The position numbers and the translations under genes are program-made. DNA of 28,775 nucleotides, from IMG/VR virus record IMGVR_UViG_3300037086_000311, positions 1-28,775 of that record. The stretch is one strand, 5' to 3'. The notes under the pieces are model-generated. The model was not told the DNA's origin. It searched no databases and was given only the letters and a program-made list of their open reading frames with translations. How positions within the stretch are numbered: the first letter of the stretch is position 1; each line of letters opens with the position of its first letter. The stretch comes from a virus. Of the stretch, positions 1,149-27,649 are shown piece by piece.

Positions 1149-1223
1149 TATAATAATATTTATTTAAAATAACTTGTTTTTTCAAAAAATTATTTGTATT
1201 TATGTACATATAATGTTAATACA

Positions 1224-6504: not shown

Positions 6505-8439
6505 TTATTGCTTCAAAAATTTATCAACCATTTTGTCATAGGAATATTTTAGTTTATCGTTAATTCCTGTTTGTTTCAAATTTAAGCCATTCGTATTACA
6601 AATTTCAAGAAAATTTTCAACACTAATCTTATTCTTTTCAATTGCATATTTTATAAGTGCTTTATAAGTACCCATATTTTTATTCAACAAATCTTTTGCC
6701 CTTTTCTTTTCTTCGCCTAATATGCCTTCAATAATTTCATCTGTTTTATCAGTATTATAGTTTAGTTCTAATCCTTGTGGTGCTTCTTTTTTTATCACCC
6801 TTGAAATAGTCCCATCCATTGCATATTTTCTAACATAACAACCTGCAGTATCTGTTGCATTTGCTATGTCTGCAGATGCACCAATTGATTTGAATTCTTC
6901 ACCAAATACAAGTTCTTCTGCAACAATACCGCCCAGATAAACCGCAATACGATTTCTTATAAATGTTTTATTTTCAATCGAACTATGATTAATGACAAAA
7001 CCTTCTGAGAAACCAGAACTGTTTATATTAATTTGCCTTGGTGGAGTTTTATATAATATTGCATATAATAAAGCATGACCAATTTCATGAACCTTTACCA
7101 TAATTTTTTCATCAATTGTTTTACCGTCACGAATAAGATCAATATCGAGAACAACTTCTTTATCATATATTTTGCTGTTAATAACAGTAAATAAAAGATT
7201 ATTTTTAATATCAAGAGACATTTCATTTAAATCATTCACAAGACAGAGATACAAGAAATATGGCAAATTACTACCAAGCAAATTATAAACCGTTGAAATT
7301 GCTGGTCTTACACCCTGCGCTGGAAACACTCCATTTCTGTAAATTGCATCATATATGTTATCAGATAAAGAAATTTTAATATGATGTTCAGTTTCAACCC
7401 TATCAAGAATTACTGTACAGTTCTTTTTGATGATTTCGTAATAACTTTTTTTATCCAAGCATGGATAAATAACATGATTATTTCCAAATCTGGCAATCTG
7501 CTCTGGTTTAAACTGTTTTGAAAGTGCATGTTTAATATGAATAATGTTGATTCTTTTGCTAAGTTCATGATAAATATCAGCATCTCTTTCACTGTCTTCA
7601 ACTTCATCAGCCATTGTAAATGCTTCATCAAGATTGCCCGAAATAAATATTAATAATTTTTCATATGACTTGCCTTCATTAACATTACCTAATTTAAGAT
7701 TATTTTCCATAATCTCCACACGTTGATCAAGACTCATTCTCATAATTTCTTCGGCAGAAATTTTTAAATTAAGCATTTTTTTAAAGCGACTTGCTGTCCA
7801 ATAAGATGTTTTATATTTGTAAATTTTTGGTTTTTTTGGTTTTGTTTTATTTTTACCTTTATTTTTTGGTGATGCTGTTTCATCTTTTTGGTCTTCGTCA
7901 GGTTCATCATCAGACATTCTATCAGAATAATACATTTCTTCATATAATAAATCCAATATTTCAACTCTACGTTGTGAATTATTTTGAAATCTACCATCTG
8001 AAAGTAACATCCAAACATCATTAAAATATTTATTATCAATCATTTCACCTTGTTCATTTAGAGTACGATACCTCTGAATTTCATCAAGAAGCAATATTGC
8101 TGGTTCTGCTGAATCAATACCACTACTCTCAAGAAAATTTTCAACACTTTTTGAATATTCATTCTTCATATCCATTTGAATTTCAATGAATTTATCGGTA
8201 AAATTTAATAATTTAACCAAAGTGCGAACCAAATCAGTTTTGCCCACACCAGTAATTCCCCATAATGAAACAATAAGTGGTCTGAATTGAAGTTCAGGTG
8301 TCAGATACCAGAGAGAAATACTATCAATTATCTTATCAATAGCGTCATCAATACCAATAAATTTATCTTTTAATGCAAGTTTAACTTCTTCAAGTTTTTC
8401 TCTTTTCGACTTAATGCGTTCAAGAAATTCTGTATTCAT
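6505..8439 (-). CDS. Clp/HSP100-type AAA+ ATPase fused to FtsH-type M41 metallopeptidase
   Basis: 644 residues, no membrane segment. Residues about 25-395 follow the second ATPase domain of ClpB/ClpC proteins: DKFIGIDDAIDKI, Walker A GITGVGKT (61-68), DMKNEY, Walker B ILLLDE (115-120), KPEQIARFGNNHVIYP (311-326, the Clp 'PE-x-x-R-x-D-x-x-V-x-F' region) and QGVRPAIS (375-382, sensor-2). A Lys/Asp-rich low-complexity insert lies at about 175-208. Residues about 440-640 form an M41 domain: zinc motif HEIGH (451-455), GGIVAEELVFGE (503-514) and GASADIANAT with the third-ligand Asp524. It should unfold and digest proteins in the cytoplasm. Real FtsH has an N-terminal membrane anchor and a different AAA domain, so this looks like a chimera. 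Confidence 0.85.
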   Translation of the reverse strand: MNTEFLERIKSKREKLEEVKLALKDKFIGIDDAIDKIIDSISLWYLTPELQFRPLIVSLWGITGVGKTDLVRTLVKLLNFTDKFIEIQMDMKNEYSKSVENFLESSGIDSAEPAILLLDEIQRYRTLNEQGEMIDNKYFNDVWMLLSDGRFQNNSQRRVEILDLLYEEMYYSDRMSDDEPDEDQKDETASPKNKGKNKTKPKKPKIYKYKTSYWTASRFKKMLNLKISAEEIMRMSLDQRVEIMENNLKLGNVNEGKSYEKLLIFISGNLDEAFTMADEVEDSERDADIYHELSKRINIIHIKHALSKQFKPEQIARFGNNHVIYPCLDKKSYYEIIKKNCTVILDRVETEHHIKISLSDNIYDAIYRNGVFPAQGVRPAISTVYNLLGSNLPYFLYLCLVNDLNEMSLDIKNNLLFTVINSKIYDKEVVLDIDLIRDGKTIDEKIMVKVHEIGHALLYAILYKTPPRQININSSGFSEGFVINHSSIENKTFIRNRIAVYLGGIVAEELVFGEEFKSIGASADIANATDTAGCYVRKYAMDGTISRVIKKEAPQGLELNYNTDKTDEIIEGILGEEKKRAKDLLNKNMGTYKALIKYAIEKNKISVENFLEICNTNGLNLKQTGINDKLKYSYDKMVDKFLKQ

Positions 8440-8469: not shown

Positions 8470-8600
8470 TATCTTTACGTGAATAGCGTCCGTTATGTAA
8501 AACTTATGCAACATTGCTGTTTACTTCCTGATTCATTGTACCACCAGATACCAAAGTATCAAGTTGTTTAGGCACTCCACAGGCTGATTCGATGTAACTC
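8470..8600 (-). ncRNA. candidate omega-RNA/reRNA at the 3' end of tnpB
   Basis: TnpB systems encode their guide-RNA scaffold across the 3' end of tnpB and the element's right end. Here that stretch can form two hairpins on the minus strand: GATAC-TTTG-GTATC (plus 8547-8560), and GTAAAC (8524-8519) with GTTTTAC (8503-8497), with an inner GCA/TGC pair, spanning the tnpB stop. The segment up to about 8470 (AACGGACGCTATTCACG) would be the right end, and the guide would follow. Borders are estimates. Confidence 0.35.
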
Positions 8601-9670
8601 ACCGACTTATTTCTTAAATTAATTGCAGCATTTAAATCTCTGTCAATTATAATATCACAAATATCACAAATATCACAAATATAGGTTCTATCGCTTAGTT
8701 TTAATTCTTTTTTAATATTACCACAATTTGAACATGTTTTACTGCTTGGATAAAATCTATCAATAATTGTAAGTGTTGAACTATACCATTGACATTTATA
8801 CTCCAATTGTCTTCTGAACTCTGAAAAGCCACCATCCAGTATAGCACTTGCAAGTTTATGATTTTTACTCATGCCCTTTACATTTAAATCTTCAATACAT
8901 ATCTCGCTGTGGTTTTTGGCTAAATATGTTGTCAATTTATGTAATGCATCTTTACGAATGTTTGCTATTTTATAATGTAGTTTTGCTACTTTTATACATG
9001 CTTTTTTACAATTATTGCTATCTTTTTGTTTCTTACTATATCTTCTTTGTAATATTTTTAATTTTCTCTTATTCTTTTTATATGGTTTAACTGCCTCAAA
9101 TATTTTTCCGTTTGATAATGTAGCAAGTGTCTTTATACCTAAATCTACACCGATAGTACCATTAATTTTATTAATTATTTGCAATTTGAAAGGTACTTTG
9201 AAGGCAATAAACCATTGATTTGCAGTCTTGCTAATAACAACATTTTTAATTTCACATTGAGGTAATATTTCCGAACATTTCAACCAACCGAATATTGGTA
9301 CTTTAATTTTATTACCATTCACATGAATGTTGGCTTCTAAATAAAAACTATCGTGTTGACCCTTCTTTTTAAACTTAGGATATTTAATATCTTTAACTTT
9401 AAACATTTTTTTATATGCTTCATCCAAATTTCTCAAACCTTGCTGAGAAGACCATTTACTAACTTCATACAACCAAGACTTAACACTTTTTTCTTCTGCC
9501 ACAAATTTCTTATGTAAATCAATTGCTGTTGGTCTTTTTTCTTTATTTTGTATTGCTAAGTCACAGACAGATTTGCCCCAATTATAAGCATAACGTTGAA
9601 CCCCTGCATGTTTATTTGCAAGGGTTGTTTGCTTATTATTTAATTCCAATCTTGTCTTAAATGATTTCAT
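8504..9670 (-). CDS. tnpB: TnpB RNA-guided endonuclease (IS605 OrfB family)
   Basis: 388 residues from the ATG at 9670 (an upstream TTG at 9682 overlaps the ligase stop). The N-terminal OrfB helix-turn-helix region (KSFKTRLELNNKQTTLANKHAG) is followed by the RuvC-like nuclease with all three catalytic acids: GVDLGIKTLATLS (Asp176), ICIEDLNVKGM (Glu260) and IIDRDLNAAINL (Asp345). The zinc finger begins CSNCGN and continues YICDICDICD, where a 9-base tandem repeat adds an extra Cys-x-x-Cys unit compared with the usual single C-x-x-C. Length is normal for TnpB. It would cut DNA next to a short motif using the RNA from its 3' end, and so help the element persist. The modified finger may affect function. 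Confidence 0.92.
   Translation of the reverse strand: MKSFKTRLELNNKQTTLANKHAGVQRYAYNWGKSVCDLAIQNKEKRPTAIDLHKKFVAEEKSVKSWLYEVSKWSSQQGLRNLDEAYKKMFKVKDIKYPKFKKKGQHDSFYLEANIHVNGNKIKVPIFGWLKCSEILPQCEIKNVVISKTANQWFIAFKVPFKLQIINKINGTIGVDLGIKTLATLSNGKIFEAVKPYKKNKRKLKILQRRYSKKQKDSNNCKKACIKVAKLHYKIANIRKDALHKLTTYLAKNHSEICIEDLNVKGMSKNHKLASAILDGGFSEFRRQLEYKCQWYSSTLTIIDRFYPSSKTCSNCGNIKKELKLSDRTYICDICDICDIIIDRDLNAAINLRNKSVSYIESACGVPKQLDTLVSGGTMNQEVNSNVA
8652..8682 (-). repeat. 9-base tandem repeat within tnpB zinc finger
   Basis: ATATCACAA occurs three times head to tail (8652-8660, 8661-8669, 8670-8678), followed by a partial fourth (ATAT). In frame it encodes Cys-Asp-Ile repeats in the second half of the TnpB zinc finger. 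Replication slippage is the likely cause. Confidence 0.85.
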
Positions 9671-9671
9671 T

Positions 9672-10688
9672 TTATGTCCCAAAGTTAGAATTTAAATAAT
9701 TTAACCAAAATATTCTGGCTTTTGCAGATATTGCGCTACCAATTTTCTTTTGATCAATACCGTTTGCAATCATTGTATCTGTTTCTTCCTTAACTACATC
9801 ATTATATACCCATCTAAGGTATTCACCAGTAGTTTTTGGTTCGATTGGCAGACCTAATTCTTTCATTTTATCAATACCTTGCAATAATCTATTTTCAGTA
9901 ACTGCATATTCAATAAACGTATTAATATTTTCAACAGCCTCTACATCAACAGTAGTAAGAGTTTTAACTTTTGAGTTCTGGTGTTTTTCACCTTTAACTT
10001 TGAAGATGTATCGCTCTTCACCATTAATATACTCCCAAACAATACCTTCACCAACACCACTTATACCAAAATATTTAGCAACAGGGCATTCTTTTTCAAC
10101 ACTTGTAGTTAATTCAATTAATTTATTCTGCATTAATTCTGGAGAATTAAAATCAATATCAATTGAAAAATTAGGAAATTGCATGATATTATAAATTTGT
10201 TCATCTTCAATTTTTAAATGTGCAAAGTTCTTCATATCCATATATATATCATCAATTTTAACGGCAAATATTACAAACATTTTAGGAAGTTGATTAATTG
10301 CAACTGACTTCTGAATGCCCTGACCGCACCATTCACCATAGATTGCACAAAACTGATCGAATTTAATGCCATCAAATAGTTTACGATAATTCTTAGTTTG
10401 CATAGTCTTCATGAATCCAGCATTATCTTGTTCAAGACTCAATACGTTTTCTCTTGATTGAAATTCAAAATGATATTGATCACCATCAACAAAATCAGAC
10501 TGTTTATATAATACAATTGCTGAGTTAGTACCATGTAATTTTACTGTACCTCTGAATGTAAATACAGGATATGGTGCTGAATGCTGATAAATAGCATCAC
10601 CATTAACATCCCTGCCTTGATAGTCACAATGACTTCTGACTTCTCTTACCACATTTCTAAACTGACCAATTTCTGTAAATGTTTTCAT
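9672..10688 (-). CDS. Rnl2-type RNA ligase
   Basis: 338 residues. The nucleotidyl-transferase motif I is VKLHGTNSAIV with Lys50 as the AMP-accepting residue. Further motifs: FEFQSRENVLSL (motif Ia region), FCAIYGEWCGQGIQ (motif III), GEGIVWEYING (motif IV) and YIFKVKGEKH (motif V), all in the order of T4 Rnl2 and trypanosome editing ligases. The C-terminal helical region (about 250-338) resembles the Rnl2 C-terminal domain. It would seal nicks in RNA duplexes or repair broken RNA such as tRNA. A long structured leader precedes it, and tnpB begins one base after its stop. No second ligase motif or kinase domain is fused to it. Confidence 0.88.
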   Translation of the reverse strand: MKTFTEIGQFRNVVREVRSHCDYQGRDVNGDAIYQHSAPYPVFTFRGTVKLHGTNSAIVLYKQSDFVDGDQYHFEFQSRENVLSLEQDNAGFMKTMQTKNYRKLFDGIKFDQFCAIYGEWCGQGIQKSVAINQLPKMFVIFAVKIDDIYMDMKNFAHLKIEDEQIYNIMQFPNFSIDIDFNSPELMQNKLIELTTSVEKECPVAKYFGISGVGEGIVWEYINGEERYIFKVKGEKHQNSKVKTLTTVDVEAVENINTFIEYAVTENRLLQGIDKMKELGLPIEPKTTGEYLRWVYNDVVKEETDTMIANGIDQKKIGSAISAKARIFWLNYLNSNFGT

Positions 10689-16844: not shown

Positions 16845-16875
16845 TTTGTTAATTAAATAAATTGTTATATCTTTG
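16845..16875 (+). promoter_or_regulatory. host-type (Bacteroidota) promoter, perfect consensus
   Basis: TTTG at 16845-16848, exactly 19 bases, then TATCTTTG at 16868-16875: a full match to TTTG-N19-TAnnTTTG recognised by the primary sigma factor of Bacteroidota. The ATG of the coiled-coil gene follows 19 bases later. Confidence 0.85.
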
Positions 16876-16894
16876 CACCATAAATTATAATGCA

Positions 16895-17110
16895 ATGGAA
16901 AAAATAAAAAAGCATTTGGAGTATGAATTTAATCGTGCAGATAATGCATGGTGGCAATCATTAAGTAATCTTGAATCTAAAGAAAAGGAATTAAAAAACC
17001 TTCAAAATGAAGTTAAATTTTTAGAAGAAGATGTTAAAAAATATGAAAAAGAAAAAGACTATTTCAATAAATTATTGACTGAATTAAACGAAAATGAAGA
17101 AAATTTGTAA
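16895..17110 (+). CDS. coiled-coil protein (71 aa)
   Basis: An upstream TTG at 16862 would run through the promoter, so the ATG at 16895 is chosen. The protein starts MEKIKKHLEYEFNRADNAWWQ and is then one long charged helix with heptad-like spacing (about 25-68; KEKELKNLQNEVKFLEE, DVKKYEKEKDYF). Function unknown; probably an oligomer. Served by the best host-type promoter in the window, so it may be expressed early. Its TAA is part of the downstream phage promoter P6. Confidence 0.75.
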   Translation: MEKIKKHLEYEFNRADNAWWQSLSNLESKEKELKNLQNEVKFLEEDVKKYEKEKDYFNKLLTELNENEENL

Positions 17111-17135
17111 CCTTTTCAAAAAGAATTACGTATAA
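17104..17135 (+). promoter_or_regulatory. phage-class promoter P6
   Basis: TTTGTAACC at 17104-17112, 19 bases between TTTG and the -7 box, then TACGTATAA at 17127-17135. It overlaps the stop codon of the coiled-coil gene. It probably drives the 16-codon frame, the homing endonuclease and the HAD phosphatase. Confidence 0.78.
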
Positions 17136-17152
17136 TATAATAAAATTATTAA

Positions 17153-17203
17153 ATGAAAGAAAATAAAAGATATACATTTTTTGATTCAGAGAAGTATTTA
17201 TAA
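17153..17203 (+). CDS. 16-codon frame, possible leader peptide or gene remnant
   Basis: ATG at 17153, 17 bases after promoter P6, encodes MKENKRYTFFDSEKYL and stops with TAA at 17201-17203. It ends 12 bases before the homing-endonuclease ATG. It may be a leader peptide, or the start of a gene cut off when the endonuclease gene inserted. The evidence is only its position after a strong promoter. Confidence 0.3.
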   Translation: MKENKRYTFFDSEKYL

Positions 17204-22007: not shown

Positions 22008-22047
22008 TTTTTTGTAAATTTATTGTATTTATGTTAAAAATAAAACA

Positions 22048-25280: not shown

Positions 25281-25323
25281 CTTTTAATTTATTTAAATTT
25301 ATAAGTATTTATAAAAAATAAAA

Positions 25324-27619: not shown

Positions 27620-27649
27620 CAAATATACTCAAATTATTTTACTTCCAAA
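27620..27649 (-). promoter_or_regulatory. possible host-type promoter of the exonuclease-like gene
   Basis: Minus strand: TTTG (plus 27646-27649), 18 bases, then TATATTTG (plus 27620-27627). Fits TTTG-N19-TAnnTTTG with one base less in the spacer. The ATG at 27585 lies 34 bases downstream. Confidence 0.5.

Follow-up and report, generated by a model that had tools for sequence, protein, structure and literature searches.

The lytic phages phiEco32 and 7-11 encode a sigma factor of the ECF family (gp36 in phiEco32), whose gene is first transcribed by a host factor and whose product then sends the host polymerase to middle and late promoters (PMC4281155, PMC4331800, PMC8948821). The promoters of phiEco32, an enterobacterial podovirus, consist of a single extended −10 element, tAATGTATA, with no defined −35 element, and occur at about 6-10 sites, late genes included (PMC4281155, PMC4331800). 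Among flavobacteria, a study of F. psychrophilum gives TAnnTTTG as the sigma-A box and takes a CGT in the −10 box as the sign of an ECF promoter; one motif with such a box, SM6, is reported there for T9SS genes and an ECF/anti-sigma pair (PMC9723704). Sigma factors have also been found in all “group 2” jumbo phages, where they were proposed to recruit the host polymerase (PMC7824862).

Here we describe a promoter class of large phages of Bacteroidota that has an ECF layout, that co-occurs with a phage-encoded ECF sigma factor, and that is found also in front of the gene for the primary sigma factor, rpoD, of flavobacteria.

The window and its relatives

The DNA analyzed (the window) is a viral contig record of 28,775 bases. 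Three related contigs (G021, G026 and G027) match its two halves, with protein identities of up to 98-100%, and a 328-kb relative (G029) is largely 40-65% identical to it and collinear in its right half. The genes of G029 include those for terminase, portal, contractile tail sheath, rIIA and rIIB, which marks the window as part of a large T4-like phage, a piece of a genome of ~300 kb from a phage of Flavobacteriia-type hosts. That these hosts are Bacteroidota is indicated by the sigma-A promoters in use and by the flavobacterial kinship of the sigma factor and promoter described below. A search of the viral contig collection with the window's DNA ligase returned no close relative; the nearest named isolates by this protein, PAU, pT24 and MA9V-1, are ~27-30% identical and lack the motif.

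Two other genes of the window may be mentioned. A TnpB-like (OrfB_IS605) gene at 8504-9682, with a sigma-A-like promoter at 9680-9709, has an 80% identical copy in G038 and no match in G021, and positions 6505-8439 encode a protein that combines an AAA ATPase domain with a Peptidase_M41 (FtsH-like) domain.

Seven two-box sites in the window

A first-pass annotation of the window had listed seven sites as a phage-specific promoter class that keeps the host −33 TTTG box and its spacing and replaces the −7 box. Aligned independently of that frame, the sites have in common an exact core, TGTAAC-N16/17-CGTATAA (Table 1), with a spacer of 16 at two sites and of 17 at five. The core matches the window seven times over both strands, where none is expected and none occurs in any of 100 dinucleotide shuffles, and the reversed pattern has no match in the window. 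All seven listed sites exist where they had been placed, but the full TTTG and TACG ascribed to them are not universal, since the sequence is ATTGTAAC...TTCGTATAA at the 309 site and TATGTAAC at the 6252 site. Their placement before genes and in the right orientation was borne out: a same-strand ATG follows at 5-25 bp in six cases and at 81 bp in the seventh, where a 16-codon ORF begins between the site and the ATG. The earlier proposal of a distinct promoter class is supported, with a controlled gene set to which the DNA ligase, the endonuclease/HAD unit and the kinase-like gene belong.

Every one of the seven sites has an AAC core in the −35 box and a CGT core in the −10 box, 16-17 bp apart, and this spacing holds in relatives; the strict pattern itself fixes it, while the dyad counts described below scanned gaps of 8-24. 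Such an arrangement is the layout of an ECF (group IV) promoter; a CGT box in the −10 element was taken as an ECF sign in F. psychrophilum (PMC9723704). The Bacteroidota sigma-A promoter, TTTG-N19-TAnnTTTG, does not describe the sites, in which the −10 box is CGTATAA and TTTG is unconserved. Judged by sequence, the seven sites are real, non-random promoters of ECF type and not modified sigma-A promoters.

Table 1. Predicted promoters and promoter-like elements of the window, with distances to the following start codon
Element	Pattern	Positions	Strand	Context
ECF-type middle promoter (predicted)	TGTAAC-N17-CGTATAA	309-338	-	7 bp 5' of ATG 301, P-loop kinase-like AAA_33; kept in G021
ECF-type middle promoter (predicted)	TGTAAC-N16-CGTATAA	1118-1146	-	7 bp 5' of ATG 1110, 34-aa membrane-like ORF; kept in G021
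ECF-type middle promoter (predicted)	TGTAAC-N16-CGTATAA	6252-6280	-	8 bp 5' of ATG 6243 (75 aa)
ECF-type middle promoter (predicted)	TGTAAC-N17-CGTATAA	14305-14334	-	21 bp 5' of ATG 14283, NAD-dependent DNA ligase
ECF-type middle promoter (predicted)	TGTAAC-N17-CGTATAA	15682-15711	-	5 bp 5' of ATG 15676 (196 aa, no Pfam match)
ECF-type middle promoter (predicted)	TGTAAC-N17-CGTATAA	17106-17135	+	81 bp 5' of ATG 17216, LAGLIDADG-type protein, then HAD_SAK_2
ECF-type middle promoter (predicted)	TGTAAC-N17-CGTATAA	22993-23022	+	25 bp 5' of ATG 23048 (236 aa, signal-peptide-like N-terminus)
Second-class (late-type) element	AGTATTTAT	17193-17201	+	14 bp 5' of ATG 17216
Late-type element	TGTATTTAT	22024-22032	+	15 bp 5' of ATG 22048
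Late-type element	AGTATTTAT	25304-25312	+	11 bp 5' of ATG 25324
Possible late-type element	TGTATTTAT	1195-1203	+	20 bp 5' of ATG 1224
Host sigma-A promoter (early-type)	TTTG-N19-TATCTTTG	16845-16875	+	19 bp 5' of ATG 16895
Host sigma-A-like promoter	TTTG-N18-TATATTTG	27620-27649	-	5' of ATG 27585

Sites before orthologous genes persist in related phages despite changes in the spacer sequence. The 15682 site is unchanged in position before the orthologues of its gene, which share 85% amino acid identity in G026 and 46% in G007, although the spacer has diverged in the latter; the 17106 site has a counterpart with a different spacer in G026; and the 22993 site is kept in G027, G026 and G007. No site was found before the G021 orthologue of the 75-aa gene. 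A longer, TTG-started ORF from 22982 overlaps the 22993 promoter, and its true start probably lies elsewhere.

The motif across related phages

A scan of the collection for the motif returned at least 118 stretches. Strict sites number 38 in G004, 38 in G029, 29 in G012, 19 in G001, 18 in G041, 17 in G013 and 13 in G005, and the larger relatives overall hold 10-52 copies, usually as an array just 3' of the gene for the class A sigma factor introduced below. Where a first-order Markov expectation was computed, it came to 0.006-0.022 sites against the 10-38 strict sites seen. The first-pass annotation had named enrichment before genes elsewhere as a check on its proposal, and such enrichment was found: most strict sites in related contigs lie within 100 bp 5' of a start codon, compared with 5-12% of random positions.

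The same element was recovered de novo. A count of all 4-mer dyads with gaps of 8-24 upstream of genes, made without any motif as input, ranked TAAC-N16/17-CGTA or an overlapping word first in G029, G041, G012, G004, G001 and G005; the dyad was absent from the controls G036, which has only the class B sigma described below, and G031, which has only an RpoD-like sigma. Beyond the core, a T or A precedes CGTATAA and C/A-T-T-T comes after TGTAAC.

Composites such as TTTGCAGATATTGTAACATTTACTAACTTTGTTACGTATTTAG, in which a sigma-A promoter (TTTG-N19-TAnnTTTG) and an ECF promoter (TGTAAC-N17-CGTA) overlap and GTATTTA is in register, precede tRNA arrays in G012 (49484+, 51489+, 71946+), G004 (85472-, 60695-) and G029 (59037-, 39083-). 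The arrays are large, and the first detected tRNA lies 250-500 bp 3' of the composite promoters, an arrangement that fits a continuous supply of tRNA through the cascade. The tRNA region of G012 contains a predicted tmRNA gene (L160:16414-16777), and a tRNA with a CUA anticodon (called tRNA-Pyl) is predicted in G029 (L178:13976-14047).

A phage-encoded ECF sigma factor

A phage sigma-like factor, predicted in the first-pass annotation, was sought and is present in the relatives: 27 of 47 motif-bearing records encode sigma region 2. Their sigma factors comprise an ECF group (class A), a separate clade (class B; support 100/100) and RpoD homologues, the last of these in another phage clade. A class B query against phage isolates gave no match. 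Class A proteins score above the cut-off of the sigma70-ECF model TIGR02937 (E 1e-21 to 5e-27) and match only the region 2 and region 4 models of Pfam, weak sub-threshold matches aside, the composition of an ECF factor without regions 1 and 3. The nearest PDB entry by sequence is SigW (8.5e-18), which class A also matches in fold (Z 11.9 over region 2), and the structural model has the two ECF domains with the fold of SigW/sigmaE. The class A proteins at L177:10693-11481 and L162:13418-14110 are extended at the N-terminus by a domain that matches PHROG 8305 (unknown function) and was not seen in those of G004 and G038.

Class A and the motif occur together when the search is run in reverse. 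A single-sequence class A query retrieved only itself, and an alignment query found further phage records; those fetched only through the protein hold 45, 15, 52, 15 and 23 strict sites. G194 is close to a copy of G038, and G196 and G197 overlap, which leaves about three new lineages among the five. Six phages without class A have 0 sites in 1.87 Mb; they are PAU, pT24, MA9V-1, a crAss-like phage that encodes a sigma factor of its own, and two uncultured huge phages. In most cases, the site array begins 60-900 bp past the class A stop codon; this adjacency is unusual for a gene of the same genome in G004 and G029, weaker in G041, G012 and G005, and not significant in G001, where the array starts 6.8 kb away.

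The class A gene itself appears to be read by the host. A TAnnTTTG box lies within 150 bp upstream of 7 of 10 class A genes, compared with 16.6% of genes (p 2.6e-4), and the 1.5 kb upstream of each class A gene contain no strict site, which together argue that class A is an early gene under host sigma-A. Autoregulation of class A through the motif was considered and is rejected by the same scan.

No sigma gene was detected in the window, either by PF04542 over the 28.8-kb record or among 30 Pfam-scanned proteins. The window, G026, G027 and G021, together part of a genome, show class B only, class A not being seen; the phage of the window would carry class A outside the sequenced fragment. G013, with its 17 sites, likewise has class B only in its 246-kb record.

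A second, late-type motif

After removal of the TAAC sites, a second strand-specific motif emerges, AGTATTTATA, most often 10-20 bp 5' of start codons. Observed and expected counts of GTATTTAT are 75 and 2.7 in G029, 59 and 3.5 in G041, and 12 and 0.5 in G026. The promoter-like form AGTATTTATAnnAAA is seen in G029, G041, G012, G004, G026 and G036 and at the three late-type elements of the window between 17193 and 25312 (Table 1).

The two motifs divide the map of G029: genes with ECF sites are found mostly at 266-327 kb and 0-10 kb, and in the region of 19-263 kb the second motif prevails. Products encoded after ECF sites include rIIA, rIIB, a DNA polymerase-family protein and an endonuclease; those after the second motif include terminase, portal and tail sheath and, exceptionally, ribonucleotide reductase. 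Since G036, which has class B only, contains the second motif and not the first, class B is likely the late sigma factor that reads the second motif.

The host rpoD promoter and its candidate reader

When 84,980 species of bacteria and archaea were scanned for TGTAACCTTTT-N12/13-CGTATAA, at least 117 stretches matched, mostly from Flavobacteriia among the matches listed, and about 90 of the matches listed sit 18-48 bp 5' of the gene for a primary sigma factor of 287-288 aa (rpoD; L260-L376, L506-L513). Three sites of the window (14305, 17106 and 22993) match TGTAACCTTTT-N12-CGTATAA exactly. As in the phage promoter, CTTTT follows TGTAAC in the host rpoD promoter, where the spacer is N17; the class is therefore not phage-specific, as had been supposed. 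The strict motif occurs once per 1.6-6.4 Mb in 29 rpoD-motif genomes (twice in two of them), and when 13 host genomes were searched with a looser pattern for a wider host regulon, rpoD was recovered and all other matches were at control level.

Class A finds its best match among host proteins in a single orthologous ECF factor (host X; L475-L486), with a clear gap to the next. In a phylogenetic tree, class A (94/94) is sister to host X (100/97), the two being joined at 94/88 apart from other host ECF factors, and most members of both have a P-L-N/G-x-V-K pattern in the region 4 recognition helix. All seven verified rpoD-motif genomes of a phylum-wide draw belong to the 13, out of 118, that have a strong host X match, an association confounded by shared ancestry; G073, an apparently incomplete genome, has the motif and no host X match. 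Flavobacterial rpoD stands under a conserved, essentially single-copy ECF-type promoter with host X as its candidate reader, and host X may transcribe rpoD. The promoter shared with host rpoD suggests that the phage has borrowed a host control circuit.

In a different phage clade (L119-L131, records of up to 318 kb), an RpoD homologue belongs to an apparent operon, the first ORF of which begins 3 bp past a conserved TGTAAC-N17-CGTATAA. Exactly one site is found per record, and no class A was found.

A model for middle transcription

We consider it highly probable that the sites are ECF middle promoters read by class A within a cascade and that they are promoters of the rpoD type. The middle promoter would consist of a −35 box, TGTAAC followed by C/A-T-T-T, and a −10 box, CGTATAA, 16-17 bp apart, and its reader would be the host RNA polymerase core with class A, in T4-like phages of ~170-340 kb that infect Flavobacteriia-type bacteria. 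Transcribed early from host sigma-A promoters with a TAnnTTTG box, class A would bind these sites and turn on replication, nucleic-acid and rII-type genes, and class B would probably take over at AGTATTTATA for the structural genes. Class A itself is a diverged relative of the one conserved flavobacterial ECF whose likely target is host rpoD. Because host rpoD has the same promoter, the middle regulon of the phage would be written in the promoter language of host rpoD.

The identity of the promoter before host rpoD also allows for a reading in which host X, normally transcribing rpoD, reads the phage sites itself, so that the phage parasitises host X and class A does something else; the phage clade with one site per record, for which no class A was found, would likewise need a host factor if its site is active. 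We regard this as unlikely. Sites occur by the dozen in phages with class A and not at all in the phages without it, the arrays begin beside class A, and the spacer length, constant inside some phages and unlike between phages, is N17 at 38 of 38 sites in G029 and N16 at 52 of 52 in G195, whereas host rpoD promoters use N17. Uniform spacers within a phage and different ones between phages argue that each phage's own sigma factor reads its sites.

Middle promoters of phage T4, which depend on MotA and AsiA, are of the type in which sigma-A is joined by a phage co-activator, and a co-activator was among the phage factors that the first-pass annotation proposed, the host polymerase being redirected to promoters in which the −33 TTTG is kept and the −7 box replaced. 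TTTG does stand at five of the seven sites, and across the relatives a mild preference for T precedes TGTAAC, but TT is found there in only 65 of 187 upstream sites, the top dyad is TAAC-N16/17-CGTA, and CGTATAA is unrelated to TAnnTTTG. Moreover, genuine TTTG-N19-TAnnTTTG promoters occur separately in the same phages and, where they nest around TGTAAC sites, do so with an offset of ~10 bp. Retention of the host box and spacing is contradicted by these counts, and a co-activated sigma-A promoter is very improbable. That the motif is a repressor or activator binding site or a DNA processing signal is hardly credible at all, given its strict strand orientation, its fixed short distance to the start codon, its two boxes spaced 16-17, its nesting with sigma-A promoters before tRNA arrays and its sequence being that of the rpoD promoter, which is placed 18-48 bp ahead of the start codon.

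Reading of the sites by class A has a possible extension, which we put forward tentatively and hold to be somewhat doubtful: flavobacterial rpoD would be served by one ECF factor, a phage lineage would have captured that factor and multiplied its promoter 10-50 fold, infection would disturb the supply of rpoD, and a second lineage would drive its own rpoD homologue from the same promoter. If so, the phage promoters and phage sigma share the control channel of rpoD and would interfere with its supply in the host, either through titration of host X or through the phage sigma taking over rpoD. The analysis also provides early, middle and late promoter classes, with a candidate sigma factor for each, for very large and poorly studied phages of Bacteroidota, by which whole genomes can be read for timing, and it points to a host feature not found in the literature searched, flavobacterial rpoD under a conserved single-copy ECF-type promoter that a specific candidate ECF factor may read. 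This makes a direct and testable link between phage takeover and the master transcription factor of the host.

Comparison with known systems

Promoters of the SigW/SigX type in B. subtilis, such as TGAAAC-N16-CGTA and TGTAAC-N17-CGAC, resemble the phage sites in the AAC of the −35 box, the CG of the −10 box and the spacing of 16-17, and SigW is the nearest solved structure to class A. The homology between the sigma factors is only remote, however, and the hosts and regulons are unrelated. SM6 of F. psychrophilum likewise has a CGT in the −10 region and was assigned to ECF sigma factors, but rpoD is not named in the main text of that study (PMC9723704). The survey of group 2 jumbo phages, in the part considered here, names no cognate promoters for their sigma factors and does not use the word ECF (PMC7824862).

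Phage ECF sigma factors with middle promoters are already known from phiEco32 and 7-11, and as in those phages, a sigma factor of the ECF family is proposed here for the middle promoters. Unlike the phiEco32 system, the one described here has two boxes, with a −10 element other than the extended tAATGTATA of gp36 promoters, 10-52 sites, a separate late motif, T4-like jumbo phages of Bacteroidota as its carriers and a promoter shared with host rpoD. This use of the host rpoD promoter class appears to be new in the literature searched.
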